Source: Eubacteriales bacterium (GTDB taxonomy: Bacteria > Bacillota > Clostridia > Christensenellales > CAG-138). Taken from it: a stretch of 64,000 nt of DNA. Made by a program: the position numbers and the translations under genes. Shown here piece by piece: positions 43,013-59,604 of the stretch. The notes beneath the pieces were generated by a model. The model made no database searches. It had not been told where the DNA came from and saw nothing but the letters and a program-made list of their open reading frames with translations. Where the stretch lies: the NCBI GenBank assembly GCA_021373115.1, contig JAJFTI010000029.1, positions 1-64,000 of the forward strand, read 5' to 3'. Position 1 is the first letter of the stretch. Every line of letters begins with the position of its first letter.

Positions 43013-43633
43013 TTACAGTCCGGTATCCGGCGGAAGGCCGATGGCCCGGGCGATCATCCAGACGGCCGTATCGATGATTTCCGGCTTTCGCCGCTCGTAC
43101 TCTTCCGGCGGCAGGCTGACTGCGGTCATCAGCCAGGGGTTCGCGGAGACGAATGCGAAGACCGCGCCAATGATGAGCATGGAGACGATCTTTGGATCCG
43201 GCAGGTTCGGATCGGACTGATTGGTTTCGATCCACCGCGCAATGAGGTTTGCGGCGCGTTCGTCCTGCCCGCTGACATACTGCTCCGGCGCAAGGCCATC
43301 CAGCTCGGAGCGGACAATCAGTTTGATGATGTTCTCCTCGTCGTTCAGCGCGCGCAGAAGCATCATCCGGAGATTGTCCAGCGCAATCGAAGGAAGCTGC
43401 TTCGGATTTGCCGGATAGTAGCCGGTCAGCATCGTAATCTGCCGATGGAGTATCTCCGTGACCAGCTTTTCCTTGCTGCCGAAGTAACGAATAATCAGGG
43501 CATGATTGATTCCGGCTTCCTCCGCGATGCGTCGAATGCTGACCGCGTTGACGCCATACAGAGCAAAAAGTCGGGTGGCTTCCCGCAAAACCCGGTCTTT
43601 TACAATTTCGGCCGATTCATTTTGCTTCGACAA
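43013..43633 (-). CDS. TetR-family transcriptional regulator
   Basis: A 206-aa repressor with an N-terminal HTH (LREATRLFALYGVNAVSIRRIAEEAGINHALIIRYFGSKEKLVTEIL) and a variable ligand domain. A TTG at 43633 has AAGGAGG 9 nt upstream and gives a normal TetR N-terminus; in-frame ATGs at 43699 and 43774 would add 22-47 residues. The upstream region holds a perfect 20-bp palindrome (43747-43766) on the start site of the divergent promoter. It therefore probably controls the small Gly-Gly peptide genes and perhaps the whole export operon. Confidence 0.85.
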   Translation of the reverse strand: MSKQNESAEIVKDRVLREATRLFALYGVNAVSIRRIAEEAGINHALIIRYFGSKEKLVTEILHRQITMLTGYYPANPKQLPSIALDNLRMMLLRALNDEENIIKLIVRSELDGLAPEQYVSGQDERAANLIARWIETNQSDPNLPDPKIVSMLIIGAVFAFVSANPWLMTAVSLPPEEYERRKPEIIDTAVWMIARAIGLPPDTGL

Positions 43634-43715
43634 TGCGTTTTTCCTCCTTCCGGACGATTTACCCGGTGACCCTATTTTAGCCGATTTGGGTCGATCCATC
43701 AATCCAATCCGATGA

Positions 43716-43766
43716 TTGACTTGAAGAAACACTTGTGATAAAGTCATTGTAACCGATCGGTTACAA
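43716..43766 (+). promoter_or_regulatory. Divergent promoter with TetR-type operator
   Basis: TTGACT (43716-43721), 17-nt spacer, TAAAGT (43739-43744), followed at once by TTGTAACCGATCGGTTACAA (43747-43766), a perfect palindrome. Bound TetR would cover the transcription start of the plus-strand transcript that reads into the peptide genes. The first peptide ATG is about 140 bp downstream. Confidence 0.72.
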
Positions 43767-43797
43767 AACGTCAACGGGAAGGAATATCCGAATCAGC

Positions 43798-43994
43798 GCG
43801 CCCTAGCTAGGACGCATCTCGGGACTGTTTTTCAAAACCTCGTTTGTATTTCACATACGCATTTTAAATGATCAGGAAAGGTGGCGAGCCACATGGAAAG
43901 AAAGCAGAAGGCGGAAAAGAAAGCGCCCGTTGTGAAAAAGGACGACAAGAAAAAGGAAATTCCGGAAAAAGAACTGGATAAAATCAGCGGCGGC
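43798..43994 (+). repeat. Tandem duplication, copy 1 (leader RNA plus peptide leader)
   Basis: The segment from about 43798 to 43994 is repeated about 280 bp downstream (44078-44273). Similarity covers the 5' untranslated region and the Gly-Gly leader coding part. It includes an identical 17-mer (CTCGTTTGTATTTCACA at 43839-43855 and 44119-44135), and it ends where the coding cores begin. A GCCC-N6-GGACG..CGGGAC pattern is also kept in both. Confidence 0.85.
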
Positions 43995-44036
43995 ATACAA
44001 GCCCAGCGCGACAGAGTCGGGCACGGGCATCCTTGA
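43893..44036 (+). CDS. Gly-Gly leader secreted peptide precursor 1
   Basis: A 47-codon gene. The 34-residue leader is extremely Lys/Glu-rich and ends KEIPEKELDKISGG, a double-glycine leader of the kind cut by C39 peptidase ABC exporters. The predicted 13-residue core (IQAQRDRVGHGHP) is basic with two His. AAAGGTGG precedes the ATG at 43893. The leader is identical to that of the second copy at 30 of 34 positions, with only conservative changes, while the cores are unrelated. It is the first gene downstream of the TetR-regulated promoter. Bacteriocin, pheromone or other signal function is inference. Compared with copy 2, the core may have suffered an indel. Confidence 0.8.
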   Translation: MERKQKAEKKAPVVKKDDKKKEIPEKELDKISGGIQAQRDRVGHGHP

Positions 44037-44077
44037 TTTCGCAATACGGTAACAAGGCCGAAAGCGAACCGCTGGCA

Positions 44078-44273
44078 CGCCCTGTCCAGGACGTATCGCG
44101 GGACGGTTATTGCATAATCTCGTTTGTATTTCACAAGCGGATTTGAATGATCAGGAAAGGAGGCGAGTCACATGGAGAAAAAGCAGAAGGCGGAAAAGAA
44201 AGCGCCCGTTGTGAAGAAGGAAGACAAGAAGAAAGAGATTCCCGAAAAGGATCTGGACAAGGTCAGCGGCGGT
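44078..44273 (+). repeat. Tandem duplication, copy 2
   Basis: Second copy of the unit described at 43798. The spacing between the identical 17-mer and the ATG is 53 nt here and 54 nt in copy 1, so the untranslated leader is maintained along with the coding leader. This suggests a functional RNA or promoter-proximal element rather than passive duplication. Confidence 0.85.
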
Positions 44274-44309
44274 GCAACCGGACAGGGGCGTATAAAGCCC
44301 AGGTGTTAA
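44172..44309 (+). CDS. Gly-Gly leader secreted peptide precursor 2
   Basis: A 45-codon gene. The 34-residue leader ends KEIPEKDLDKVSGG; the predicted core is ATGQGRIKPRC, eleven residues ending in cysteine. A perfect AAAGGAGG precedes the ATG at 44172. The terminal Cys could allow disulfide, thioether or thioester chemistry. The C39 exporter needed for cleavage is encoded at 49260. No lanthionine, radical SAM or YcaO gene is nearby, so the product may be unmodified or altered by the TIM-barrel protein at 47885 (speculative). Confidence 0.82.
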   Translation: MEKKQKAEKKAPVVKKEDKKKEIPEKDLDKVSGGATGQGRIKPRC

Positions 44310-44402
44310 TCCGGTAAACGACGGAACAAAAGGCGGTTTCACGCGAGCAACAGTCTATCCGGTGTCGGCCGTGTCCGGCAAGACAAATCGGACGGACGGC
44401 TT

Positions 44403-44428
44403 TAGCGCACGAAGAGAAACGTGCGCTA
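44403..44428 (+). terminator. Possible attenuator before the cyclase gene
   Basis: TAGCGCAC/GTGCGCTA (44403-44410 and 44421-44428) with a 10-nt loop is followed by a broken T-run (TTTGC). It lies between the peptide genes and the large genes, where partial termination would make peptide mRNA more abundant than exporter mRNA. The rest of 44310-44540 shows no other gene. Confidence 0.5.
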
Positions 44429-44540
44429 TTTGCATGTTTCGCTAATCGACACCGGCCATGCGCGGCGGAATCGCCTGCAAAATAGATATACGGAACAACA
44501 AAGGATGTTCTATTTACCGGAAACAGAAGGGAGATGCAAA

Positions 44541-46337
44541 ATGCGGAAGGAGCGATTACGCAGCGGCGCGGTGGCCTGCTGCATCGGACTATTGTGCTTT
44601 GGCATCGTCTTTTCTCAGCTTTTTTCCGGTCTGGATTATTTTGCAAAGGATTTGCTCTACAGTAACCGGAGGCCGACCAGCAGTGTACTGAAAATCATAG
44701 CGATCGACGAAAAGGCGATCGAGCAGTTCGGCCCCTTTGGGACCTGGGACCGGAGCGTCTACGCGGAACTTTTACGGCTGCTCGATCAGGACCCGGAGTG
44801 CCGTCCCGCCGTCATTGCGTTTGACGTGCTCTTTACCGGGCGGATGAGCGGCGCGGGAGACGATGCGTTTCAGGCGGCCGTACAGGAGTATGGCAATATC
44901 ATCAGCGCATCCCATCTTGTGATTCACGAAAGAGCGACGCTGGGGGCGGGAGGGCTTTCCGTCTTTGAAAGCGTGCAGGGGCTGGAGCTTCCATACTGGC
45001 TGAACGAAAGCGACCATACGGTCGGGTTCTCCAACACGGACCTGCAGGGGGATGGAAGCGTGCGCAAGGCGGTGCTGAGATGCGGATATCAGTCGGCGCA
45101 GCTCAACAGTTTTGCCTACCAGACCTATCTTGCCTACTGCGCCCGAATGGAGCGGGTTCCACTGGAGCCAAAAACGGAACAAGGCGCGTTTCTCATCGAT
45201 TACGCGGGGCGCTCCGGCGATTTTGAAACCGTCTCTCTGGCGGATGTGTGGAACAAAACGGTCGATCCGGCGGTGTTTCAGGATTGCGTGGTGCTCGTTG
45301 GCGCCTATACGACCGGGCTGCAGGACGATTTTTACACCGGTACGAACCGGAGCGAAAAGCTCTACGGCGTTGAGATACACGCCAACATTCTGCAGAATCT
45401 CATGGAAGGCAGGCAGCTGCTTCCGGTGGAAAACTGGCTTGCGGCGCTGATCTTCGCGCTGGCGGCGGCGGTGTATTACCTTGCGGCGCGTGGCAGAAAA
45501 CTCCTCTTTGGAACGATGCTGGCGCTTGGGATCCTTTTGCTCGATCTTGCCGCTGCGTATCTGGTTTTTCGGATGGGCAGGGTACTGCCGGTTCTCGATT
45601 TGCCGCTGTTTATCCTGCTGATTTACGCGTACCAATATCTGAAGTCCTATCTCGAAGAACGCGCGCACCGGCTGCGGCTTTCCAACGCCTTTCGAAAATA
45701 CGTTGCCCCGCAGGTGGTGGATCAGCTCGCAAAGGACCGGCGCTTTGAAATCAAATTAGGCGGAGAATTGCGAACGGTCGCGGTGCTTTTTATCGACATT
45801 CGGGGGTTTACTCCGCTTTCCGAATCGCTCGCGCCGCAGATGGTCGTTTCCATTCTAAACGAATATTTCGCTTTGGTTACGAAAGCGATTTTTGATCACG
45901 GCGGCACACTGGATAAGTTTATCGGGGATGCGGCGATGGCGGTGTTCAACGCGCCGCTCGACCTGCCGGACTATGAGTACCAGGCGGTCTGTACGGCGCT
46001 GGACATCGTGTCCGGCGCGGAAGCGCTGGAAGCGCGCCTGTTCGAGCGGCACCAAAAACACGTTGGGTTCGGAATCGGCATAAACTGCGGCGAGGCGGTC
46101 GTCGGCAACATTGGCTGCAGTTTCCGCATGGATTATACCGCCATCGGAGATACCGTAAACACCGCCGCGCGGCTGGAAAGCAACGCGAAAAAGGGGCAAA
46201 TCCTGGTTTCCGAAGCGCTGTACGAAAAGGTGCGAAACCGCGTGGAAGCGGAAGAGATCGGCGTCATTCCGCTCAAGGGCAAGTCGGAAGGCGTTTGTGT
46301 TTACAACATCGTCGGGAAGAAGAAGGATTTCGAATGA
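44541..46337 (+). CDS. CHASE2-domain class III adenylate/guanylate cyclase
   Basis: A 598-aa membrane sensor enzyme. One N-terminal helix (about 9-29) precedes an extracytoplasmic CHASE2 domain (about 30-300, with KIIAIDEKAIEQFGPFGTWDR and VVLVGAYTTGLQDDFYT). Three further helices (about 305-385) lead to a class III cyclase domain (about 405-580). Metal-binding Asp419 (FIDIRGFT) and Asp463 (FIGDAAM) are present. So are the substrate Lys of LDKF and the transition-state Asn/Arg in IGDTVNTAARLES, so it should be active. It makes cAMP (Lys/Asp type recognition) in response to an external cue. ATG at 44541 has AAGGGAG upstream. Its stop codon overlaps the next start. Confidence 0.92.
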   Translation: MRKERLRSGAVACCIGLLCFGIVFSQLFSGLDYFAKDLLYSNRRPTSSVLKIIAIDEKAIEQFGPFGTWDRSVYAELLRLLDQDPECRPAVIAFDVLFTGRMSGAGDDAFQAAVQEYGNIISASHLVIHERATLGAGGLSVFESVQGLELPYWLNESDHTVGFSNTDLQGDGSVRKAVLRCGYQSAQLNSFAYQTYLAYCARMERVPLEPKTEQGAFLIDYAGRSGDFETVSLADVWNKTVDPAVFQDCVVLVGAYTTGLQDDFYTGTNRSEKLYGVEIHANILQNLMEGRQLLPVENWLAALIFALAAAVYYLAARGRKLLFGTMLALGILLLDLAAAYLVFRMGRVLPVLDLPLFILLIYAYQYLKSYLEERAHRLRLSNAFRKYVAPQVVDQLAKDRRFEIKLGGELRTVAVLFIDIRGFTPLSESLAPQMVVSILNEYFALVTKAIFDHGGTLDKFIGDAAMAVFNAPLDLPDYEYQAVCTALDIVSGAEALEARLFERHQKHVGFGIGINCGEAVVGNIGCSFRMDYTAIGDTVNTAARLESNAKKGQILVSEALYEKVRNRVEAEEIGVIPLKGKSEGVCVYNIVGKKKDFE

Positions 46338-47866
46338 AGAACCGGTGTTTGCATTGCTGCATCGTCCCGATTGCGACGGTTCTCCTGCTTGCGGCGCTGC
46401 TTGCGGGCTGCGGCGGCGGTTACCGAAGCATCTTCGTGGCTTCTGTTACGGGCGGCGTGACCGTTGCCCGGGCAGATCAATCGGATGAAATCACCTGCTA
46501 TGAAGGCATGAAACTGCAGGATCAGGATATTGTCACCGCGGCAAGCGACGGCTGCGTCATCCTGAAACTGGACGACGATAAATACGTTTATCTGGAGTCC
46601 GGCGCGCAAATCCGGATTTACGCTGCGGGTAAAACCGGCAGTACGGAGACGCAGATCGAACTGACCAAGGGGACCATGTCCGCGGTGATTGAGCAGAAGC
46701 TTTCGGCAAACGAGAGTTTCCGCGTAACGGTGGATAACGTTTCCATGGTGGTTCGGGGTACGATTTTCCGTATCTCGCGGGGCGAAACGGAGAGCGGCGA
46801 GCCGACCGTTCTGATCCAGACCGTGGAAGGCACGGTTGGTATTCTCGCGGAGGACGGCGCCGAAGAGACGCTTGGCGCGAATCTGCAGGATGTTCTGATC
46901 CTGACGGATACGGGCGGAACGTTTTCTTCCACCGATATGCCAATCGACTACTCCGCGCTTAAGCCGGAAACGCTGATCTGGATCCGCGACGCGCTGCAGG
47001 ATAAGCTGGCCGGTTCGACCGATCCGGATGAGGCGGCGGCGCTGCAGGAGATTCTCGCAATTCTAAACGGCGCAACTGCCTTTGCCGCACAAACGCCGGT
47101 GCCGACCGCGCTCCCCGCGGAAGAGCCAACGCAAACGCCTGTGCCAACGCCAACGCGGGTACCGGAATATACGCTGACCCTGCGCAAATCCTCCTATGGC
47201 AGAGTTACGGTGGCGGAGGGGTCCTATCCCGCCGGAACGGAGATTCCGATTTCGGCGGAAGCTTACGGCGGGTTCGAATTCAACGGCTGGATGATCAATG
47301 GCGAATCGGCTCCATCGCTGGGAATGTCGGCGGATACCGTACTGGTCATGCCGAACGGCGATACAACGATCGGCGCAAGGTTCCGAGGCATGAAATACAC
47401 GCTTTCCATCGAGCAGCCCGCACAGGGCGGCTCCATTTCAGGCAAGGCCGGAAGGTATGCGCAAGGGGAAGAAATTCTGCTGACTGCCACCGCTTTTGCG
47501 GGCTATGAACTAACCGGCTGGCTGGTCAACGGCGGCGCTGCTGCTTCGCTTGGGAATACTCCTTCCATAACATTCACCATGCCCGCCGCGAATCGGACGA
47601 TCTGCGCGGTGTTTTCGCCGGTAGCCGCGGCCCACAGTCTCACGTTTGAGCAGGCGGCGCAAGGCGGCGGAGTCATTCTGTTAACCGCTGGATCGTATAC
47701 CGCGGGCACAATGGTTCCCGTTACGGTTGTTCCGGAGACGGACAAGATACTCGCCGGACTGGTCGTTAACGGGGTTCTGGATAATATTTATCAGGGGCAG
47801 ACCAGTTTTGATTATTGTATGCCGAATGAAGACGTACTTCTTTCGGCGGTGTTTGAGATTCATTGA
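46334..47866 (+). CDS. FecR-domain lipoprotein with three InlB-type repeats
   Basis: A 510-aa exported protein. The signal peptide ends LLLAALLAGC (lipobox). A FecR domain (about 35-200, KLQDQDIVTAASDGCVILKLDDDKYVYLESGAQI and VSMVVRGTIFRIS) is followed by a Pro/Thr linker (about 255-275). Three divergent InlB B-repeats follow (about 278-350, 352-428, 432-510), each with an xGxY..GxEI and GW motif. FecR domains often sense or relay surface signals, and InlB repeats mediate surface contacts. Overlap with the cyclase gene (ATGA) suggests it may partner the CHASE2 sensor; this is inference. Confidence 0.85.
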   Translation: MKNRCLHCCIVPIATVLLLAALLAGCGGGYRSIFVASVTGGVTVARADQSDEITCYEGMKLQDQDIVTAASDGCVILKLDDDKYVYLESGAQIRIYAAGKTGSTETQIELTKGTMSAVIEQKLSANESFRVTVDNVSMVVRGTIFRISRGETESGEPTVLIQTVEGTVGILAEDGAEETLGANLQDVLILTDTGGTFSSTDMPIDYSALKPETLIWIRDALQDKLAGSTDPDEAAALQEILAILNGATAFAAQTPVPTALPAEEPTQTPVPTPTRVPEYTLTLRKSSYGRVTVAEGSYPAGTEIPISAEAYGGFEFNGWMINGESAPSLGMSADTVLVMPNGDTTIGARFRGMKYTLSIEQPAQGGSISGKAGRYAQGEEILLTATAFAGYELTGWLVNGGAAASLGNTPSITFTMPAANRTICAVFSPVAAAHSLTFEQAAQGGGVILLTAGSYTAGTMVPVTVVPETDKILAGLVVNGVLDNIYQGQTSFDYCMPNEDVLLSAVFEIH

Positions 47867-47884
47867 TAACCATAGGGGCGTTCT

Positions 47885-48655
47885 ATGCTGATTATTCCCG
47901 ATTTTTTCCAGATAGAGGAGAGCCTGAAGCTGGCGCGCGAATACGCGCTGGGCTTTGAGTACAACGATTTCTATCTGAATCTGGACGACGCCGCGGGGAT
48001 GGAAGAGAAAATTGCGTTTTACCGGCGCAACTCCCCGCCTTGCGACTGCACGCTGCACGGCGCTTTTTACGACGTTGCGGTTGGCAGCGCGGATGCTCAA
48101 ATTCGCGCCGTTTCGCGAAGCAGGGTTGCGCAAAGCGTCGAAATCGGGAAAAAGCTCGGTGCGCGGGCGGTCGTCTTCCATACGAATACGATTTCGAATT
48201 TTCATTTAAAATCCTATTGTGAAAACTGGCTTGCGGAAAATGCGGCGTATTATTCGGGCGTTTTGCAGACGAACCGGACGATTGGCATCTATATCGAGAA
48301 CATGTTCGACCAATCGCCGGATCTGCTGCTGCGGCTTTCCGAACAGCTCTGCGTTTACCCAAACTATGGCGTGTGCCTGGATTTTGCGCATGCGTGCCTG
48401 TCCCAAACCAAGATAGAAGATTGGGTGGAACCGCTCGCACCCTATATTCGGCACATTCATTTGAACGACTGCGACGGACTGGAGGATTCCCACCTTGCGC
48501 TGGGGCGCGGGAAAATGGACATTCCGGGCTTTTTTTCGCTGCTGGAACAATACCGCGTTTCGGGGAGCGTCCTGCTGGAGGTCCGGGGGATCGAAGACCA
48601 GCGGGAGAGCCTGGAGTACCTGCGCGCGCGCGGGCTGCTGCGGGAAGCGCGCTGA
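47885..48655 (+). CDS. Sugar phosphate isomerase/epimerase-like TIM-barrel protein
   Basis: A 256-aa protein of the AP-endonuclease-2/xylose-isomerase-like TIM-barrel superfamily. Candidate metal-site residues lie in CTLHGAFYD, VVFHTNT, IYIENMFD, VCLDFAHACL, IRHIHLNDCDG and HLALGRGKMD. The family includes isomerases, epimerases and endonuclease IV; the related DUF692 enzymes modify peptides. It lies inside the export operon, 18 nt after the FecR gene and 23 nt before the secretion adaptor gene, so a role tied to the peptides or to a surface glycan is possible but unproven. Confidence 0.8.
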   Translation: MLIIPDFFQIEESLKLAREYALGFEYNDFYLNLDDAAGMEEKIAFYRRNSPPCDCTLHGAFYDVAVGSADAQIRAVSRSRVAQSVEIGKKLGARAVVFHTNTISNFHLKSYCENWLAENAAYYSGVLQTNRTIGIYIENMFDQSPDLLLRLSEQLCVYPNYGVCLDFAHACLSQTKIEDWVEPLAPYIRHIHLNDCDGLEDSHLALGRGKMDIPGFFSLLEQYRVSGSVLLEVRGIEDQRESLEYLRARGLLREAR

Positions 48656-48678
48656 AAGACACGGGCACCGAGGAGCGT

Positions 48679-49263
48679 ATGGACGACGAAATTATTTTCC
48701 GAAAAGTGGCGATGGAACGGCTCTCCTCGCCGGAAAATCTGGATCAGGTCATGCGGGTGGTTCCGGCCAGAAGCTGGATTGCGCTTGTGTGCCTGTTTGT
48801 TTTTGCCGCAACGGCGGCCGCTTGGGCATGCTTTGGTGAAATCGTAACCCAGGTGGAAGGGCGGGGCCTTCTGCTGCAGGAATCCGGTTCGGCGGCGGGG
48901 AAGGTCGTTGCGGCGCTGTCCGCCGGGGATGGGCAGAGCGTGCGGCCGGGTATGGAGGCGATTGTTTCGCTGGACTCCGGCGAGACCCTGACCGGCAAGG
49001 TCGCCTCCATTTCGAATGCGGACGGCCAGACGCTGGTTGTGGACGGGGTATCGATTTCCAAGGCTTCTTTTCCCGGATGGGTGGCCGGCGCGCCGTATCT
49101 TGCGGTTATCCTTCCGCTCGACAACGGCGGGGCGCAAGAGGCGGCGAGTGCGCGGCAAACCGACGGCGCGGCGGGCCGGTCTTGCACGGTTCAAATCGCA
49201 ATTCGGATGCTTCACCCGATTCAAATGATTTTACCCGGCGGAGCGGAGAAAAGCGGACAATGA
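48679..49263 (+). CDS. NHLM-type secretion adaptor (HlyD-like), unusually short
   Basis: A 194-aa membrane-fusion-type protein. N-terminal cytoplasmic part RKVAMERLSSPENLDQVMRVV, one helix (WIALVCLFVFAATAAAWAC), then GEIVTQVEGRGLLL and a beta-rich lipoyl/barrel region, ending in VQIAIRMLHPIQMILP as in the NHLM secretion protein family. Usual members are clearly longer because of a coiled-coil hairpin, which seems absent here. ATG at 48679 with GAGGAG upstream. The stop codon overlaps the exporter start (ATGA). Works between the ABC exporter and the outside face of the membrane. Confidence 0.82.
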   Translation: MDDEIIFRKVAMERLSSPENLDQVMRVVPARSWIALVCLFVFAATAAAWACFGEIVTQVEGRGLLLQESGSAAGKVVAALSAGDGQSVRPGMEAIVSLDSGETLTGKVASISNADGQTLVVDGVSISKASFPGWVAGAPYLAVILPLDNGGAQEAASARQTDGAAGRSCTVQIAIRMLHPIQMILPGGAEKSGQ

Positions 49264-51449
49264 AGCACACGCTGGCTCCAAACAAGGGATCGTTTCGAAA
49301 CCGGTTCCGCAAGCGGGTTAAAACACCCACCGTTATCCAAATGGAAGCGGTGGAGTGCGGCGCGGCCGCGCTTTCCATTATTCTCGGCTACTGGGGCAAG
49401 TTTGTGCCGCTGGAAGAGCTGCGGGTCTCCTGCGGCGTTTCCCGCGATGGCAGCAAGGCGGGCAATATCGCCAGGGCGGCGCGGAAGTATGGGTTGATTG
49501 TGAAAGCCTGCCGCTACGAGCCGGATGATTTGACCACCATTCCGCTTCCGGCCATTCTTCACTGGAACTTCAATCATTTTCTTGTGCTGGAAGGGTTTAA
49601 AAAAGACCGCGTGTATCTGAACGATCCGGCAAGCGGACCCTATCAGGTTACCAAACAGGAGTTTGACGAGGCGTTTACCGGGGTGACGCTGATGTTTCAG
49701 CCCGCACCGGGGTTCGAAAAATCCGGAAAGCGTCGTTCTCTGACAGGGGCGCTGAAAAGAAGCCTGAGCGGACGCTCCGCGCCGATGGCGTTCCTGTTTT
49801 TGACCAGTTTTCTGCTGGTATTTCCCGGGCTAATCGTTCCGTATTTTTCCAAGTTTTTTGTGGACAACATCCTGTCCGCGCGGATGGACGGATGGATGCC
49901 GCCGTTTCTCATTGGGCTGGTGCTGGTGGCCGCGTTTCAGGCCGCTGCATCCGCCGTTCGGCGAAACGCCATGAACAAGCTGGAAAACGAACTTTCGAAA
50001 AGCCATTCCAGCCGGTTCCTGCGTCATCTGCTCCGGCTTCCGATGGAGTTTTTTATGCAGCGGTTTACCGGGGATATTGCCGCTCGCGTTTCCTATAACG
50101 ATACGGTGAGCGAACTCGTCACCGGAAAGCTCGCGTCCACGGCGCTGGATTTGCTGATGGTGGTATTTTTCCTTGCCATGATGGTTGTATTCAGCCCGCT
50201 TCTTGCGGTCTTGGGGGCGGGCGTTGCGTTGGTCAATCTGGTGCTTCTCTTTACGCTTTCCAGGAAGCGCGCAAATCAGCAGCGCAGACTGCTGTCCGAC
50301 GAGGGAAAGTTCAGCGGCGCCGTCGCGTCCGGGCTGGAGATTATCGAAACGATTAAAGCGGGGGGTATGGAACCCGACCTGTTTGCAGGATGGGCCGGAT
50401 ATCAGGCGAAACTGCTCAACGCCGAACAGAGAATGGGAACGACGCTGCCGCTGCTGACCGCGCTGCCGGTATTGATTACGGCGCTTGACAGCGCGGCGGT
50501 GCTGGCGGTTGGCGCCGGCCAGGTCATGGCCGGGCAAATGACGGTTGGTACACTGATTGCGTTTCAGGGCCTTCTTGCCAGCTTTATTCTGCCAATCAAC
50601 CATCTGGTTGGATTTGCGGATGAAATTCAGGATCTCAAGGTATACCTGGAACGCCTGGAGGACGTATACGATTATCCTCCGTCACACGAATGCGAACAGG
50701 AGGAGGGTGAGGTGGACGGGAACGAAAAACTCACCGGGCGCCTGGATCTTTGCAACGTTTCGTTTGGCTACAGCAGGCTGGAGCCGCCGCTGATCGAGGG
50801 ATTTTCCCTGTCGCTGAAGCCCGGCGGGTCTGTTGCCATCGTGGGCGGCACCGGCAGCGGAAAATCCACGCTGGCGAGGCTCATCGCCGGATTGTACGAG
50901 CCCTGGGACGGCGAAATTCTATTCGACGGCAAGCCGCGAGCCGCAATTCCGGCGGAAACCATGCGCCGCTCCCTTTCGATGGTAGATCAGGAGATCAGCA
51001 TATTTGAAGGTACGGTGCGGGACAATATTACCATGTGGAGCACCGCGGTTTCCGAAAGCGACCTTGATGGAGCGGCGCGGGACGCCTGCATTCGCGGCGT
51101 ACTGCTGGAGCGGCAAGGCGGCTACGAACTGGAGCTGGACGAAAACGGGAAATGCTTCAGCGGCGGCGAGAAGCAGCGCATCGAGATTGCCCGCGCGCTC
51201 TGCATCAATCCGGCAATCCTGCTGCTGGACGAAGCGACGAGCGCTCTCGATCCGATTGTAGAAAAGGAAATTATGGATCGTATCCGCAGCCGCGGGTGTT
51301 CCTGCGTGGTGGTTGCCCACCGGCTGAGCACCATTATGGATTGCGACGAGATTATCGTGCTCGATCACGGCCATATTGCGGAACGAGGAACCCACACACA
51401 GCTGCTTGCGCGCAAAGGCGCCTATGCCAGGCTGGTTGCCAGCACGTAA
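49260..51449 (+). CDS. NHLM-type ABC exporter with C39 peptidase domain
   Basis: A 729-aa peptidase-containing ATP-binding transporter. The C39 domain (about 20-150) has the catalytic Cys33 (MEAVECGAAALS), His106 (NFNHFLVLEGF) and Asp122 (YLNDPASGPY), so it should cleave after Gly-Gly. A transmembrane domain (about 165-460, six helices) and an ABC ATPase (Walker A GGTGSGKST, signature FSGGEKQRIEIARAL, Walker B ILLLDEATSALD) follow. It is the natural processing exporter for the two Gly-Gly peptides at 43893 and 44172. Overlaps the adaptor gene by 4 nt and abuts the next ABC gene. Confidence 0.93.
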   Translation: MKHTLAPNKGSFRNRFRKRVKTPTVIQMEAVECGAAALSIILGYWGKFVPLEELRVSCGVSRDGSKAGNIARAARKYGLIVKACRYEPDDLTTIPLPAILHWNFNHFLVLEGFKKDRVYLNDPASGPYQVTKQEFDEAFTGVTLMFQPAPGFEKSGKRRSLTGALKRSLSGRSAPMAFLFLTSFLLVFPGLIVPYFSKFFVDNILSARMDGWMPPFLIGLVLVAAFQAAASAVRRNAMNKLENELSKSHSSRFLRHLLRLPMEFFMQRFTGDIAARVSYNDTVSELVTGKLASTALDLLMVVFFLAMMVVFSPLLAVLGAGVALVNLVLLFTLSRKRANQQRRLLSDEGKFSGAVASGLEIIETIKAGGMEPDLFAGWAGYQAKLLNAEQRMGTTLPLLTALPVLITALDSAAVLAVGAGQVMAGQMTVGTLIAFQGLLASFILPINHLVGFADEIQDLKVYLERLEDVYDYPPSHECEQEEGEVDGNEKLTGRLDLCNVSFGYSRLEPPLIEGFSLSLKPGGSVAIVGGTGSGKSTLARLIAGLYEPWDGEILFDGKPRAAIPAETMRRSLSMVDQEISIFEGTVRDNITMWSTAVSESDLDGAARDACIRGVLLERQGGYELELDENGKCFSGGEKQRIEIARALCINPAILLLDEATSALDPIVEKEIMDRIRSRGCSCVVVAHRLSTIMDCDEIIVLDHGHIAERGTHTQLLARKGAYARLVAST

Positions 51450-51463
51450 TGGGAAGAGGAAGG

Positions 51464-53593
51464 ATGAAGGAAGAAGGAAGCATGAAAAAGCCGCTGCGTC
51501 ACGGCGGCCAGGCCCATGACACCGGCCTTCACCCGGTCTATGCGGCGTTGCGGCGCATTGCGGATTTTCTGGGTGTTTCGGTTCCGCCATCCAATTTTGA
51601 GAATACTTGCGGAGACGATCGAAACATAACGAAAGCCGCCGCCGGATGCTGCCTGCGCGTTCGTCCGGTACATCTGCAGGATTCCTGGTGGAAGGAGGAC
51701 GGAGGCCCGCTTCTGGCTTTCTGCTGCGTCAGCGGAGAACCGGTTGCGCTGATTCCCGGGCCGCCGGGTCGCTACCGGATGTTTCATGCCGGAGATCGCA
51801 AGGGCGAACCGGTGGACGCGGCGGCGGCGCAGAAGATTGACCGGCAGGCGTATTCACCCTATGCGTCGTTTGAATCCGGCAGCGTGAGCCCGAGCCAGCT
51901 CGTCCGGTTCGGCCTGAAGCGGTTCTGGCGGCAGGATTTGGTATTCACGCTGGCGGCGGGGATGGTTGGCGGCATACTGGAACTTGCGGTGCCGCTTGCC
52001 ACCGGGCTGCTGTTTGACTTTATCGTTCCTGCGCGGCAGGCCGGCCAGATCGTTTGGATCATCCTGCTGCTCGCGCTTGCCGGTTTTACGGCATTCGTTT
52101 TTCAGGTGACACGGTCGTATTCGTTGATGCGGATGGAAGGCAAGCTGGATATCGGCCTGGAAAGCGCGCTTTGGGACCGGATGCTGAACCTTCCCGTGGA
52201 GTTTTTTCATGAATTCTCCGCCGGCGATCTGGCAAACCGCGCTTCCGGAATTACAAAAATCCGCAAAGCCCTGTCCGAGTCCGCGGTGAACGCGCTGCTG
52301 GCATGTATATTCTCGCTCTTTAGCTTGATCTTGGTTTTTATCTACAGTACCGCGGCGGGATTTGCTCTGCTCGCCTGCCTGCTGGTTATGACGGCGGTAA
52401 TTGTGATACTTTTTTCCGTACTGCGGGAACCGGTCAAGGAAAAAACGATGCGGGCCGGCAGACTGGAGGGACTCCTGATCCAGCTGATCCGCGGGTATCA
52501 CAAGTTTGTCGTGACCGGGTCGCAAAACGTCGCTTTTGCGCTCTGGTACAAGCCGTTTTCCGAGGTAAAGCGCGTGGAGGCGGAAATCGGCGCGCGATCG
52601 GCTCTGCTGGACGTGGCGGCTGCGGTCTTCCCCATCCTGTCCGCGGTTGTGTTCTATGCCGCGGCATATTACGGGTCTTCCGATTTGAACGCGGGCAGTT
52701 ACTTTGCGCTGTATGCGGCGTTTTGCACCGTTATGGCTTCGTTTTCAGAACTGCTTCTGTCGTTTTCGGGCTTCCTCAAGGTGATTCCGCATTATGAACG
52801 GATGCGGCCCATACTGGACTGCCCGGCCGAAGTGAACGAGCGCAAGCAGAATCCCGGAAGGCTCAGGGGTGAGATAACCTTGTCGCATGCGGTGTTCCGC
52901 TATCGAGGCGGCAGCTGTAACGCGCTGGACGATCTCTCCCTGACCGTGCGCGAGGGGGAAATGGCGGCGCTGATCGGCGGTTCGGGGAGCGGGAAATCGA
53001 CGCTTTTCAAGCTGCTGCTGGGGTTTGAACAGCCGTCCGCAGGCGCCGTTTTTTACGACGGAATGGATCTGGCTTCGCTGGATGTGCAGGAGGTGCGCGC
53101 GCAGATTGGCACGGTGATTCAAAACGCGCAGATCATGTCCGACAGTATCTACAAAAACATTGCGGGATCGGCGTTGATTTCCATTGAGGATGCCTGGGCC
53201 GTCGCGCGGCTCGTGAGTCTGGATCGGGATATTGAAGAAATGCCAATGGGGATGCATACGTTTCTCAACGAAGGCGGCCGGACACTTTCCGGCGGACAGC
53301 GGCAAAAAATTCTGCTTGCCCGCGCGTTGGTGAAAAAACCGCGCATTCTGCTTCTGGACGAGGCGACGAGCGCGCTGGACAATACCGCGCAGGCGGTGGT
53401 AACCGAGAGCCTGAGCAAATTGAATATTACGCGCGTTGTGATTGCGCACCGGCTGAGCACGGTCATGAACGCCGATACGATTTACGTTCTGGAAAACGGG
53501 CGAATCGTGCAATCCGGCAGTTATACGCAACTGCTGGCCGGCCCGGGTCCGTTCCTTGAATTTGCCAGGCGGCAGATCGTTTTTGAAAGGTGA
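51464..53593 (+). CDS. NHLM-type ABC transporter without C39 peptidase
   Basis: A 709-aa ABC protein. The first 140 residues (ALRRIADFLGV, CCLRVRPVHLQDSWWKEDGGPLLAF) match the N-terminal domain typical of the second NHLM transporter and lack a C39 catalytic set. A six-helix membrane domain (about 150-450) and an ATPase (Walker A GGSGSGKST, signature LSGGQRQKILLARAL, Walker B ILLLDEATSALD) follow. It probably pairs with the C39 exporter. ATGs at 51449, 51464 and 51482 are all plausible; 51464 has AAGAGGAAGG close by and is a compromise. Confidence 0.9.
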   Translation: MKEEGSMKKPLRHGGQAHDTGLHPVYAALRRIADFLGVSVPPSNFENTCGDDRNITKAAAGCCLRVRPVHLQDSWWKEDGGPLLAFCCVSGEPVALIPGPPGRYRMFHAGDRKGEPVDAAAAQKIDRQAYSPYASFESGSVSPSQLVRFGLKRFWRQDLVFTLAAGMVGGILELAVPLATGLLFDFIVPARQAGQIVWIILLLALAGFTAFVFQVTRSYSLMRMEGKLDIGLESALWDRMLNLPVEFFHEFSAGDLANRASGITKIRKALSESAVNALLACIFSLFSLILVFIYSTAAGFALLACLLVMTAVIVILFSVLREPVKEKTMRAGRLEGLLIQLIRGYHKFVVTGSQNVAFALWYKPFSEVKRVEAEIGARSALLDVAAAVFPILSAVVFYAAAYYGSSDLNAGSYFALYAAFCTVMASFSELLLSFSGFLKVIPHYERMRPILDCPAEVNERKQNPGRLRGEITLSHAVFRYRGGSCNALDDLSLTVREGEMAALIGGSGSGKSTLFKLLLGFEQPSAGAVFYDGMDLASLDVQEVRAQIGTVIQNAQIMSDSIYKNIAGSALISIEDAWAVARLVSLDRDIEEMPMGMHTFLNEGGRTLSGGQRQKILLARALVKKPRILLLDEATSALDNTAQAVVTESLSKLNITRVVIAHRLSTVMNADTIYVLENGRIVQSGSYTQLLAGPGPFLEFARRQIVFER

Positions 53594-53600
53594 GAACGCA

Positions 53601-55868
53601 ATGAATCGAAACCGGAAGAACCAGCCGCAGCCCGAAGGAACGCGAGTTTGCATCCTGCTCGCGTTGCTTCTCTTTGCGGGGGCGCTAGCGTTTGGCTGGC
53701 TGGCGGGCGCGTGGCTGACGGTCTTCTTTCAAAACCAATCTACAGTTTCTGCAGCCGGAGCATTTGGCGAAAGGTTCCGGTGGGGTTTAGCGATCGCGGC
53801 GCCCATCACGGCTCTTTTACTGGTTTTTCAAATCATACGAACGGGAAAGCTTCTGGGGCGAAAAGCCCTGCTTGTATTCGCAGCGGCGCTTGTGCTTTCG
53901 CCGCTGATGCTGCTCGCGGCACCGGGAACAAGCCAAATAGCTGTTTGGGCGCTGGATCTGTTGTTCTTGCTGTTTGCCGTGCCATCCGCCGCGCAGGTCG
54001 CGCTGCTGGGAGGGGAGGAGCGGTTCGATCATGCCTGTTTGACTCCGCTGCTCTTTCTTCTGCTGTTTGGAGGTGCCGCTGCGGCTTGCTTGCCGGCAGT
54101 CCGGCCGGAAGCGGGAATGATTGCGGTTTATGCGATTCTGCTGATTGCCTGCGCCGCGCTGGAGGCGCTCTGCAGGAACAACCAGCAGCGCATGCGGCTG
54201 ATGCAAATTGCGCTGCGCGACAGCGCAAAAGCCGGGGATATGAAACTGGCGCTGGGGGAGGACGGAATCCGCCAGTTGTTGCCATACTTCCGGCAGCAAA
54301 TGAGCGAGGGAACGTCCGTTGCCAAACTGCTGATTCTGGATTTGATCCGGGGGATTGAATTCGACGGAAAAGACGCGCTGGTGCGCACCGCGTTTACCTC
54401 CGGTTCGCTGGAGGTGCGCATTGCCATTATCGATCAGATTTTTGAGTGGAATCTGCCCTATGATCTTCTGGCGGACACGATAGAGCTTTGCGACGCGCCG
54501 CTGGCGGAGTATCTCGTACGCAAGATCTTTTTGAATCTTACGGATATTGCGGATCATGGCGTTCTGGAACGTATTCGCGCGCGGGCGGAATATCTGGGCC
54601 GTTTTCAGCTGACGGAAGAAACGAACAGGATGTTTGGGTATGTGTTTAACGGCAGACGGGAAGAATATGAGGTCATTCTCGGCAGCCTGCTGCACTCCGA
54701 CCGCAAGGAGGACCGGTTGTTTGCCGCTCGGATCATGGCCGCGTTCCTCGGCCGAGAAGACGGCGCCAATCAGCGCTATCTGGCGGAAGTGCTCGGCCAA
54801 ACCATACGTAACCCGTCCGAAGCGGAGGAGATGATTGAGCTATGCGCGGAATACGATTTGGACAAGTCGTATCTCAGGCAGTTCTTCAGCGGTTACTATT
54901 CCTACTCCTTCCTGAAAAAGGTCGTTCAATTCTATGAACCTGCCGGCATTGTCCGCTCCTTTGGCGAGAGTGTGTGTCCGGTTCCGATTGCGCTGACGCT
55001 TCTGGCGGCATGCCGTATGGAGCGGGGAACCGTGAGCGCATACCGGGCAAAACGAGATCGCATGATCGAATACCTGTGCCTGCTGGAGCGGGAAGAACAA
55101 AAAATCCGTGCCGCGGAGCAGGGGGCCGGCAGGCTGCTGCTGAGTGAAATCACGAGGATTAAGCGCACGCTTGCGGCCGTTCTGGCCGAATATATGCGGA
55201 CGGACGAAACCGGGAACCGCGCGGGGTTTCTCGGTCCGGATTTGGAGCAAGCGCTTTTCAACGGAGTTCCGGAGCGGGTTTTGGAGAGCCTCTCCGAAGA
55301 GTCGCGCGAGCGGCTGCGGATGGAGGAAGATTCCGCGGACGGCGGTTTTCATTACGGTATATTAAGGGTCAGCGAAAGCAATACGCTGCTGGAATCGATT
55401 TACAGATACCTGGGAGGCGAAGCGATGGATACGCAACTGACGGAGAATATTGAAAAACTGATTACGCTGAAAGCGATTCCCTTGTTCAGTGAATTGGATG
55501 TTTTCACACTGCAGCAGATTCAAAAGATATCGATCTATAAAAAGATACCCGCCGGAGAAACAATCATCACCGAAGGGGAAGAAGGGGACAGCCTGTACGT
55601 CGTAATCTGCGGAAGGGTGGGTGTCTATAAAGGCGGAACGAGCATCAACGAAATCGGCGCAGGCGGACTTCTCGGCGAGATGGCGGTTATCGAAAAGCAA
55701 AAGCGATCGGCAACGATCCGGACGCTGGAAGAAACGGACTTTCTCGTGATTCAGGGCGAAGATTTCGCTGCGCTTCTCGAACGCAACAGCAGCGTCTCCG
55801 GCTCCGTGATCCGCATGCTGTCGGGGAGGCTGAGGAAGATGCTGGAGGAAAGTCCAAAGCCGGTATAA
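53601..55868 (+). CDS. Membrane protein with HEAT-like repeats and cyclic-nucleotide-binding domain
   Basis: A 755-aa protein. Six hydrophobic helices (about 8-195) are followed by a long helical region of HEAT/armadillo-like repeats (about 200-620). A C-terminal cyclic-nucleotide-binding domain (about 630-750) begins FSELDVFTLQQIQKISIYKKIPAGETIITEGEEGDSLYVV. Its phosphate-binding cassette GEMAVIEKQKRSA keeps the Glu (693) and Arg (702) needed to hold the cyclic phosphate. It is therefore the likely receptor for the cyclase product made at the other end of the same operon. AAAGGTGAG precedes the ATG at 53601, 7 nt after the ABC gene. No DNA-binding domain, so the output is probably on transport or the membrane. 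Confidence 0.85.
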   Translation: MNRNRKNQPQPEGTRVCILLALLLFAGALAFGWLAGAWLTVFFQNQSTVSAAGAFGERFRWGLAIAAPITALLLVFQIIRTGKLLGRKALLVFAAALVLSPLMLLAAPGTSQIAVWALDLLFLLFAVPSAAQVALLGGEERFDHACLTPLLFLLLFGGAAAACLPAVRPEAGMIAVYAILLIACAALEALCRNNQQRMRLMQIALRDSAKAGDMKLALGEDGIRQLLPYFRQQMSEGTSVAKLLILDLIRGIEFDGKDALVRTAFTSGSLEVRIAIIDQIFEWNLPYDLLADTIELCDAPLAEYLVRKIFLNLTDIADHGVLERIRARAEYLGRFQLTEETNRMFGYVFNGRREEYEVILGSLLHSDRKEDRLFAARIMAAFLGREDGANQRYLAEVLGQTIRNPSEAEEMIELCAEYDLDKSYLRQFFSGYYSYSFLKKVVQFYEPAGIVRSFGESVCPVPIALTLLAACRMERGTVSAYRAKRDRMIEYLCLLEREEQKIRAAEQGAGRLLLSEITRIKRTLAAVLAEYMRTDETGNRAGFLGPDLEQALFNGVPERVLESLSEESRERLRMEEDSADGGFHYGILRVSESNTLLESIYRYLGGEAMDTQLTENIEKLITLKAIPLFSELDVFTLQQIQKISIYKKIPAGETIITEGEEGDSLYVVICGRVGVYKGGTSINEIGAGGLLGEMAVIEKQKRSATIRTLEETDFLVIQGEDFAALLERNSSVSGSVIRMLSGRLRKMLEESPKPV

Positions 55869-57393: not shown

Positions 57394-59604
57394 ATGAAGA
57401 AGGTCAGTCAACAACAACGCTTTTTTATTGCATTAGCGTATATAGTCGTAATCACCGTTATTTTTCTCTCTTTTGGCGGGACACTCTCTGAGATAGTGGA
57501 TGACACCAGTAATATGGGGGTATGGTTCTGTTCTGCAGCACTACTGATTATTTTTGGGATTTATCTTACAGAACCCTTTTTTAGTAAGCCGGTTGACACA
57601 ATAACCAATTGTACTTCGGTATTATTAACTCTACTTGCTTTACCCCAAAAAAAGGCGCTTATTGGCTATTGGTTTATTATGACGGTTACGCTTGTTCTTC
57701 TTGTATTAAGTTTTATTACGATTTTCTTCAAAGATAAAGAAAATGGCTTTCTACGATTAGTGCATTTCGTTGTTATGAATATAGGCAATGCCAGATTTGT
57801 CTTTTCTCCTTTTTATCTTTTAAGTGCATATTCTTTCTTTGCGGTAGCCGGAAGGCACGCCGAGTTTACTCTAATAGCGTTACTATGGTTCTTTCTTTGT
57901 GTCTTTGATCCAATTTCTTGGGTCTTGAGAAAATATAACCAGCTTCGGATCGCGCAATCACCCCCAGAAACGTATATTGGAATTGCTACACAATGTAGCG
58001 CTCCGGAGATTTATACAATTGAGTCAAGCTACGAAAGCAATGTAAGTATAAATATCGGAAATATCGTTGGTATAAAATTATCGACTCATTTATATAAAAT
58101 AGGCGTGATATCATGGGAACAAGATTTATTGAGCGGAAGGTTTATAGAAATTCAATGTTATGACTTTGGTAGTACACCTAACAGATTTACATGCGAGCAA
58201 TTGGGCATAGAACAAACACAAAAAAACGTTAGAAGCAAGCCTGTCGCCAGTGTAGTACTTATTAAGCCTGAACTTCTTTCTGAGGGTATAAAGGAGCTAA
58301 TCAAGAATAACGTACTACATAAGAATATATGTAATTTTATTGGTCGTGTACTCGAAGGGTCGACCATAGAGATGATTAAGTTCTCGGTTAACAATTCATT
58401 GTTAGTAATATCAGAAGGTCAGATAGTATATACGCTAATCCATAATGAAATCGTACTATATCAAATAATCAATGGTATTACTGCGGAAGAAATATTAGAT
58501 CACACGAACCATACAGCATATTTATGTTGTTATGCTAGAAAATTGGGCAAGTATATAAATAACCAACTGGAAATTGTTAAGTGGGTACCTTGTGCAGCCG
58601 AACCAGTATTTTTGTTAAATTCAAATACACCCAATGTTGATGAACTTCGAAGCATTGCAAATTCTTCAATTGGGTGTCTACCACAAACTAAGTACCAAGT
58701 CAAGATTAATAATATAGATGAATTAATCACACACAATACTGCAATTTTAGGTATTTTGGGTGTTGGTAAGTCTTGCCTTGCATTTGAGTTAATACAAAAA
58801 GTTGTTAGAGCTGGAAAGAAAGTTGTTTGTATAGACATAACAAATCAATACTGTTCTCCGAAAGGATTAGGAAGATATGTTGACAATGAGAATATTGTTC
58901 TAGACATTAGGCAAGAACAAAGAGACGCACTTACCAGTACGTGCCGATCAGTTGGAAGTTCGAACTTGCAGGACAGATGGGGGAATATTAGAAATTACGA
59001 GAGCATATTATACAATACATTTAGGGAATTCATGGATTCGCCTAGTTCTGTTTTGATTCTTAATCCTGATAATCATAATGTCGGAAAAGCAGCAACTTTA
59101 TATACAATTCAAGGTACGGCAGAACTAACAACAGCAGAAAAAACCAGGATAATCTCTGAACAACTGCTAAAGTTGTGTGAAGAGCAAGGTCAATCCGATG
59201 TAGCTAGATGTCTTCTGGTGTATGAAGAAGCTCACTCTCTAATACCTGAGTGGAATTCTGTAGCAAATGAAGGCGATAAAGCTGCAACAAATGGAACGGC
59301 TCGAGTTATAATGCAAGGTCGAAAATATGGGCTAGGCTGTTTTGTCATAACTCAAAGAACCGCAAATGTCACTAAGAGTATACTAAATCAATGCAACACG
59401 GTTTTCGCTTTTAGAATTTTCGATGATACAGGAAAAACTTTTCTCGAGAATTATATTGGTTCGTACTACTCGAGTATTCTGCCTACTCTCGAAGAGCGCC
59501 ATACTCTTGCTATTGGAAGGGGACTGGCATTAAAACAACCTGTAATTATCCAATTAAATGATTTGAAATACCTCGTATATGATCAAGATCCTTTGTTATT
59601 GTGA
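57394..59604 (+). CDS. Membrane-anchored HerA/FtsK-type ATPase (DUF87-like), AT-rich
   Basis: A 736-aa protein. The N-terminal third has about four to five hydrophobic segments (from residue 10 to about 165), a middle domain is unassigned, and the C-terminal third is a HerA-like P-loop ATPase. Walker A is ILGVGKSCLAFEL (about 455-465), Walker B is CLLVYEEAHSLIP (about 606-616) with the Glu-Glu pair, and a conserved QGRKYGLGCFVITQR strand precedes an arginine-rich sensor. Codon use is far more AT-rich than all neighbours, which suggests recent acquisition. HerA ATPases occur in DNA-processing and phage-defence modules, but no nuclease partner is adjacent. AGGGGG precedes the ATG. Confidence 0.8.
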   Translation: MKKVSQQQRFFIALAYIVVITVIFLSFGGTLSEIVDDTSNMGVWFCSAALLIIFGIYLTEPFFSKPVDTITNCTSVLLTLLALPQKKALIGYWFIMTVTLVLLVLSFITIFFKDKENGFLRLVHFVVMNIGNARFVFSPFYLLSAYSFFAVAGRHAEFTLIALLWFFLCVFDPISWVLRKYNQLRIAQSPPETYIGIATQCSAPEIYTIESSYESNVSINIGNIVGIKLSTHLYKIGVISWEQDLLSGRFIEIQCYDFGSTPNRFTCEQLGIEQTQKNVRSKPVASVVLIKPELLSEGIKELIKNNVLHKNICNFIGRVLEGSTIEMIKFSVNNSLLVISEGQIVYTLIHNEIVLYQIINGITAEEILDHTNHTAYLCCYARKLGKYINNQLEIVKWVPCAAEPVFLLNSNTPNVDELRSIANSSIGCLPQTKYQVKINNIDELITHNTAILGILGVGKSCLAFELIQKVVRAGKKVVCIDITNQYCSPKGLGRYVDNENIVLDIRQEQRDALTSTCRSVGSSNLQDRWGNIRNYESILYNTFREFMDSPSSVLILNPDNHNVGKAATLYTIQGTAELTTAEKTRIISEQLLKLCEEQGQSDVARCLLVYEEAHSLIPEWNSVANEGDKAATNGTARVIMQGRKYGLGCFVITQRTANVTKSILNQCNTVFAFRIFDDTGKTFLENYIGSYYSSILPTLEERHTLAIGRGLALKQPVIIQLNDLKYLVYDQDPLLL

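Follow-up and report, generated by a model that had tools for sequence, protein, structure and literature searches.

The window analysed here is a 64,000-nucleotide stretch of Eubacteriales bacterium DNA (GenBank assembly GCA_021373115.1, contig JAJFTI010000029.1, positions 1 to 64,000) and corresponds to contig C30 in a draft genome of 2.9 Mb and 39 contigs. Nine plus-strand genes span 43893-55868 and encode two small peptides with Gly-Gly leaders, a CHASE2 class III cyclase, a FecR-domain lipoprotein, a TIM-barrel protein, the HlyD, ABC1 and ABC2 components of an NHLM-type exporter, and a membrane protein with a cyclic nucleoside monophosphate (cNMP)-binding domain. A TetR-family regulator gene is divergent from these (Table 1). 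Each of the nine genes lies at or very near the coordinates given in a first-pass annotation, and the TetR, leader, cyclase, FecR/InlB, TIM, NHLM and cNMP domains named there were borne out by profile search, with the catalytic residues intact. The tight spacing noted from 44541 onwards persists after start corrections: the successive gaps are -4, 18, 23, -4, approximately 14 and 7 nt.

Table 1. Positions of genes and sequence features at the locus, in window coordinates.
Feature	Position	Strand	Details
TetR-family regulator	43633-43013	-	PF00440 53.7 bits; TTG start after AAGGAGG, read from sequence
Promoter-like site for peptide genes, TTGACT-17-TAAAGT	43716-43744	+	
Promoter-like site for TetR, overlapping region	43774-43746	-	
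Perfect 16-bp palindrome GTAACCGATCGGTTAC, candidate TetR operator	43749-43764		touches both promoters; single copy in window
Gly-Gly leader peptide 1	43893-44036	+	47 aa; MERKQKAEKKAPVVKKDDKKKEIPEKELDKISGG before cut, core IQAQRDRVGHGHP
Gly-Gly leader peptide 2	44172-44309	+	45 aa; MEKKQKAEKKAPVVKKEDKKKEIPEKDLDKVSGG before cut, core ATGQGRIKPRC
CHASE2 membrane sensor with class III adenylyl-type cyclase	44541-46337	+	
FecR-domain lipoprotein	46334-47866	+	lipobox LAG/C (cut at the slash); three InlB-type repeats
AP_endonuc_2 TIM barrel, candidate zinc phosphodiesterase	47885-48655	+	
Short NHLM-type HlyD adaptor	48679-49263	+	194 aa
NHLM ABC1	49260-51449	+	C39 peptidase, permease and ATPase
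NHLM ABC2	~51464-53593	+	permease and ATPase, no peptidase; in-frame alternative starts 51449, 51482
Membrane protein with C-terminal cNMP-binding domain	53601-55868	+	cassette GEMAVIEKQKRSAT

A scan of 84,980 species genomes with the NHLM ABC1 alignment, from which the best 80 loci were kept, revealed one further locus with the complete set. This top locus (L070), in a Clostridiales metagenome assembly, carries all nine genes in an order identical to that of the window, its own peptide pair included. Identities are 63.5% for the cyclase, 45% for FecR, 58% for TIM, 43% for HlyD, 67% for ABC1, 56.5% for ABC2 and 49% for the cNMP protein. The L070 Gly-Gly mini-peptides are encoded immediately upstream of the cyclase set and have the cores ARTFQR and AKKEKK. 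In both genomes, the cyclase of this operon is the only class III cyclase. The first-pass annotation is borne out in part. It had proposed one linked set, and had named absence of the cyclase and cNMP genes from the locus in all related genomes as evidence against it; L070 has the whole set. Its further proposal, that an external signal raises cNMP and so gates peptide processing or export, is a hypothesis. The recurrence of the nine genes in a distant bacterium suggests that they work as one unit. It is very improbable that these are two unrelated gene groups that are neighbours by accident. Both do occur separately elsewhere, but here closely spaced or overlapping genes interleave, with the cyclase, FecR and TIM genes before the exporter and the cNMP gene after it, and this interleaved order is kept in L070 at 43-67% identity.

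Apart from L070, none of the best 80 loci has the full gene set. Neither an NHLM ABC2 over the cut-off nor a class III cyclase was found in any of seven genomes of the same genus, and close relatives at family and order level that do carry NHLM exporters (L031-L037) have none of the cyclase-side genes. For the transmembrane (TM)-helical part of the cNMP protein, which excludes the cyclic-nucleotide-binding (CNB) domain, no match was found in 390 other genomes of the class, 397 other genomes of the phylum or 199 relatives of the L070 genome. The genome of the window is not among these last 200, as it would have matched. A scan of genome contigs using the cNMP protein alone also gave no match. 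The presence of a collinear set in two scattered genomes suggests that it was transferred as a unit. The reading preferred here, given an even chance of being correct, is that the genes form a transferable operon in which a private cyclic AMP (cAMP) circuit would control an NHLM-type peptide exporter.

The cyclase has matches to CHASE2 (147 bits) and Guanylate_cyc (91.5 bits). All six residue positions looked for in a class III adenylyl cyclase are present, these being the metal-binding Asp residues D419 and D463, the transition-state residues N540 and R544, and the purine-type residues K459 and D537. The predicted product is cAMP. The adjacent lipoprotein matches FecR at 33.6 bits and its three InlB-type repeats score 121.7 bits, while the L070 copy has neither the InlB-type repeats nor the lipobox Cys. 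A gene for a FecR-domain envelope protein is also found next to a CHASE2 sensor in the BiofilmReg operon of Burkholderia (PMC5192318), although the CHASE2 protein there is a histidine kinase and the operon has no exporter.

Both ABC proteins exceed the cut-offs of their NHLM models, ABC1 with 977.5 bits for TIGR03796 (cut-off 853.3) and ABC2 with 786.8 bits for TIGR03797 (cut-off 709.4). The Peptidase_C39 domain of ABC1 scores 119.5 bits, and its residues C33, H106 and D122 are conserved across eight NHLM ABC1 proteins. The NHLM adaptor of the first-pass annotation is upheld in its N-terminal match to TIGR03794, which covers model positions 1-57 of 421 only, but at 65.9 bits the protein is below the cut-off of 156.2. 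HlyD proteins of approximately 157-199 aa are common for NHLM loci in Clostridia, versus approximately 420-550 aa in many Gram-negatives. The exporter should therefore be seen as NHLM-type with a reduced adaptor, rather than as a textbook member. NHLM exporters were defined by Haft et al. in 2010 and first described for microcin- and bacteriocin-like products (PMC2887384). The three-gene export set, the C39 peptidase and the Gly-Gly precursors close by are common to these and to the window. The window differs from them in its very short adaptor, in leaders that lie outside the NHLP/Nif11 models, and in the inclusion of cyclase, FecR, TIM and membrane cNMP genes in the operon.

The leaders of peptides 1 and 2 are short, at 34 residues, and were described in the first-pass annotation as duplicated. 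They differ by 10 synonymous versus 4 conservative amino-acid codon changes, which is in agreement with duplication. The two sequences part ways at the codon right after the Gly-Gly, and the cores are unrelated. On sequence grounds, tandem leader copies with divergent cores are the pattern of real precursor genes, with the leader under selection. The Gly-Gly leader motif is present at two places only in the window and in none of 50 shuffles, and leader DNA occurs in this genome as these two copies only. The NHLP and Nif11 leader models do not match the window peptides, which have generic Gly-Gly leaders.

Across the window and L070 peptides, the cores are 6-13 residues long and have no paired cysteines, fitting signals better than toxins. 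A bacteriocin operon, in which the peptides would be antimicrobial, the cNMP membrane protein would give self-protection and the cyclase would tune production to stress, is quite improbable. The peptides are indeed small and rich in Lys and Arg, they are associated with an exporter family first described for such products, and peptide 1 is over the TIGR01847 cut-off (16.9 bits, cut-off 15.7) and has a weak match to bactofencin. The six-residue cores of L070 are very short for a bacteriocin, however, no modification enzyme of known type is present in the operon, and the suggested immunity function leaves the cNMP domain unexplained.

The cNMP protein is predicted to have approximately six N-terminal helices of TM length and a helical middle region, and it ends in the C-terminal cNMP_binding domain (69.7 bits). 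The phosphate-binding cassette of this domain retains both the Glu and the Arg expected of a cNMP-binding domain. In the PDB it best matches cyclic GMP (cGMP)- and cAMP-dependent kinases, with the MlotiK1 channel as the best bacterial match. The domain is therefore a likely reader of cAMP. An association of this kind is already recognised in the TIGR03896 (cyc_nuc_ocin) family, where the gene for a cNMP-type protein adjoins NHLM export genes, as in the window. Against the TIGR03896 cut-off of 161, the window protein reaches 42.5 bits, in a single domain. TIGR03896-type relatives are located beside NHLM exporters of other phyla in L081, L084, L095, L097, L106 and L125, and no class III cyclase was found adjacent to any of these six. 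The window protein is unlike this family in being membrane-bound and in keeping the cassette Arg. At this position the window has RSAT, with Pro or Thr (PPSAT, PPTAS, PTSAT) in the matched cassettes of L081, L084, L097 and L125.

The pairing of a class III cyclase with a cNMP-binding membrane protein is shared with Pycsar anti-phage defence, and the PADLOC models PycC (E 1.5e-28) and PycTIR (E 3.6e-18) match the cyclase and cNMP domains. These matches are limited to the shared domains. A Pycsar system would be a compact operon with a pyrimidine cyclase and a TIR or TM effector, whereas this is a nine-gene operon with an embedded exporter and its substrates, an extracellular CHASE2 sensor, the purine-type Lys and Asp of adenylyl cyclases and no TIR domain. 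A defence role of this type was considered and rejected, being extremely improbable.

Other cNMP proteins with an Arg cassette are found at NHLM loci. In Paenibacillus sp. cl123, an NHLM operon encodes a 1060-aa protein (L108:5930-9112) whose only Pfam domain is an N-terminal cNMP domain, and its gene overlaps the HlyD gene by 4 bp. This is perhaps another nucleotide-linked NHLM exporter. Two further cNMP proteins near NHLM exporters (L072:16011-17948 and L088:17404-18507) also keep the Arg cassette, one being fused to a DASS-type transporter and one to a SpoIIE phosphatase.

The TIM-barrel protein, unexplained in the first-pass annotation, looks like a zinc phosphodiesterase. It matches AP_endonuc_2 at 90.9 bits and has nine residues (H58, H99, E138, D166, H169, H192, D201, H203 and E232) that do not vary among seven sequences with identities as low as 23%. 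These presumably correspond to the three-zinc ligand set of endonuclease IV. Most of the nine fall inside the profile alignment with AP endonucleases, and H58 aligns with MJ1311 and TTHB071, the latter having a zinc-soaked structure on record. In the profile search MJ1311, TTHB071 and AP endonuclease IV (1qtw, E 4e-7) were placed above most sugar epimerases. The structure model has a predicted local distance difference test (pLDDT) value of 90 and a TM-score of 0.71 to 1qtw. The protein is alike to the endonuclease IV/CbiR-like zinc TIM barrels in fold and in the nine metal-ligand-type residues, but is under the family cut-offs, with 59.9 bits for CbiR (cut-off 105). The zinc ligands and the gene neighbourhood suggest that it might be a cAMP phosphodiesterase, a tentative assignment with rather less than an even chance.

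CHASE2 is present in 19 of 391 genomes of the class. Besides the window's own, 19 CHASE2 loci were compared, none with NHLM ABC1 nearby, and a FecR protein is encoded no more than approximately 8 kb from CHASE2 in 16 of these. The TIM protein is found near CHASE2 in four intact loci (L181, L182, L183 and L185) and in one decayed remnant (L195). In the cyclase tree, the TIM-linked loci, the window and L070 are in one clade with support of 98/99, which also holds two loci in which no TIM gene was seen. The genes for the CHASE2 cyclase, TIM and a cNMP protein are closely spaced in L182, where there is no exporter. A sensor, a cyclase, a candidate phosphodiesterase and a nucleotide reader therefore occur as a free-standing module, and the window can be seen as this module merged with an exporter. 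Since the cyclase, FecR and TIM genes occur alone in other Clostridia, this part is not specific to secretion. Other CHASE2 loci have a gene for a metallo-beta-lactamase (MBL) fold, never alongside TIM, or a GAF-HD gene nearby. The MBL and HD folds both include known phosphodiesterases.

The peptides could themselves be the ligand of FecR and CHASE2, with an exporter that is always on and with cAMP and the cNMP protein as the response to peptide density. Cores of this length without paired cysteines fit pheromones, and the L070 peptides follow a histidine kinase and a LuxR-type regulator, with the palindrome AAAGTCATATGACTT upstream of both peptide genes. Yet the CHASE2 cyclase and FecR are found together in many loci that have neither exporter nor peptides, so the usual ligand is not this peptide, and the cNMP protein has no recognisable output except its membrane part. 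Such a self-sensing loop is unlikely.

Other features were observed at the CHASE2 loci. In L195:9049-10239, CHASE2 runs directly into a partial TIM barrel in a single 396-aa frame; this candidate CHASE2-TIM fusion was rejected, being a decayed copy from which the cyclase domain has been deleted. MBL-fold proteins adjoin CHASE2 cyclases at L187:11379-13094, L188:178-1887, L189:7169-8890, L190:7262-8974 and L191:10952-12661. The one of these that was scanned also has GAF and GGDEF domains and a weak match to the anti-Pycsar Apyc1 model. A relay from cAMP to cyclic di-GMP (c-di-GMP) through such MBL/GGDEF neighbours is possible. A protein of approximately 1050 aa with no confident Pfam domain is encoded next to CHASE2 cyclases at L180:10285-13350 and, in two copies, at L183:1995-5282 and L183:6511-9741. 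In Bradyrhizobium (L096:8674-21114), NHLM genes are found with a Gly-Gly peptide and a cNMP-NTE-patatin protein, and on the opposite strand with a CHASE2 cyclase, a CRP-like protein and a weak FecR match. This locus was not counted as support due to the opposite strand and because the genus is likely to be rich in such cyclases.

In the preferred reading of a cAMP-controlled exporter, the FecR protein, held on the outer side of the membrane, would together with the extracellular CHASE2 domain sense something at the cell surface, and the cytoplasmic cyclase domain would then produce cAMP. The polytopic cNMP protein would bind this cAMP through its C-terminal domain, and the activity of the complex of NHLM ABC1, ABC2 and short HlyD may change as a result. 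ABC1 would cut the two small precursors after the Gly-Gly, and the complex would release the cores, most likely as signal peptides. The TIM-barrel enzyme would hydrolyse cAMP and reset the circuit. Transcription would be set by TetR in the window, a place that the two-component system would fill in L070. A stronger form of this reading, with a self-contained cAMP circuit that includes a new class of TIM phosphodiesterase, directly gates a peptidase-containing ABC exporter and moves between Clostridia as a cassette, is doubtful.

Several observations weigh against cAMP control of the exporter. There are two full copies only, and the assemblies that hold them are both metagenome drafts. For the cNMP protein, the structure model has a pLDDT of 44, too low for contact with the exporter to be judged. 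A cNMP fold alone is also no proof of cAMP binding, since the exporter HetC of Nostoc, which itself contains a cNMP-type domain and requires it in vivo, bound guanosine tetraphosphate (ppGpp) and not cAMP (PMC10986499). HetC resembles the proposed window system in being an exporter with a Gly-Gly peptidase that depends on a cNMP-type domain, and its presumed cargo is a signal peptide. It is unlike the window in that it has no known substrate and that the domain is within the exporter itself; a domain scan found no cNMP domain in ABC1 or ABC2.

The last of these observations is from the fold search with the TIM model, in which sugar epimerases rank alongside AP endonucleases and UlaE is near the top. 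The model fold alone cannot separate endonucleases from epimerases. Whether the TIM barrel instead modifies the peptides, or a sugar or cofactor, is evenly balanced. Such an activity would leave the cAMP part with no dedicated shut-off and is otherwise compatible with cAMP control of the exporter. The AP_endonuc_2 family consists mostly of sugar epimerases, and some TIM-barrel proteins (DUF692) modify peptides. A modifying role is less readily reconciled with the presence of the same TIM gene next to CHASE2 cyclases that have no peptide exporter (L181, L182, L183 and L185), nor with the agreement of the nine invariant residues with a trinuclear zinc set.

The first-pass annotation knew of no described system with this exact set. 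This holds for the complete circuit, which was not found in the literature searched, where no paper was identified that names TIGR03896 or brings these features together. The adjacency of cNMP and NHLM genes is not new in itself. As TIGR03896 proteins beside NHLM exporters and the HetC domain (PMC10986499) were already known, only the complete circuit is new. Little is known of cAMP signalling in Clostridia, and HetC is the one experimental hint so far of nucleotide-ligand gating of Gly-Gly peptide exporters. One operon here brings together a cyclase and exported peptides with a likely reader and a likely phosphodiesterase, which makes second-messenger gating directly testable in a heterologous host. 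If the reading is correct, a second messenger, and not transcription alone, would decide when peptide signals are released, and the conserved TIM neighbour of CHASE2 cyclases elsewhere in Clostridia would acquire a function as a phosphodiesterase.

The promoter-like sites in Table 1 are assigned by position alone, because their number in the region is no higher than in shuffles. The palindrome between the divergent genes may be the operator of TetR. L070 has no TetR, having instead the histidine kinase and LuxR-type response regulator genes upstream. This difference indicates that it is the protein circuit that is conserved, and not the promoter control.

The right flank of the operon is syntenic across the genus, although no island ends are definable. 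A genomic island was considered and rejected, there being no repeat of at least 14 nt of the neighbouring tRNA-Val and the operon resembling the rest of the window in its G+C content at third codon positions (GC3). A HerA/DUF87-like gene at 57394-59604 has a GC3 of 0.30, against 0.64-0.72 in the other measured window genes, and no match within the otherwise syntenic stretch of same-genus genomes. This gene is therefore probably a recent arrival.

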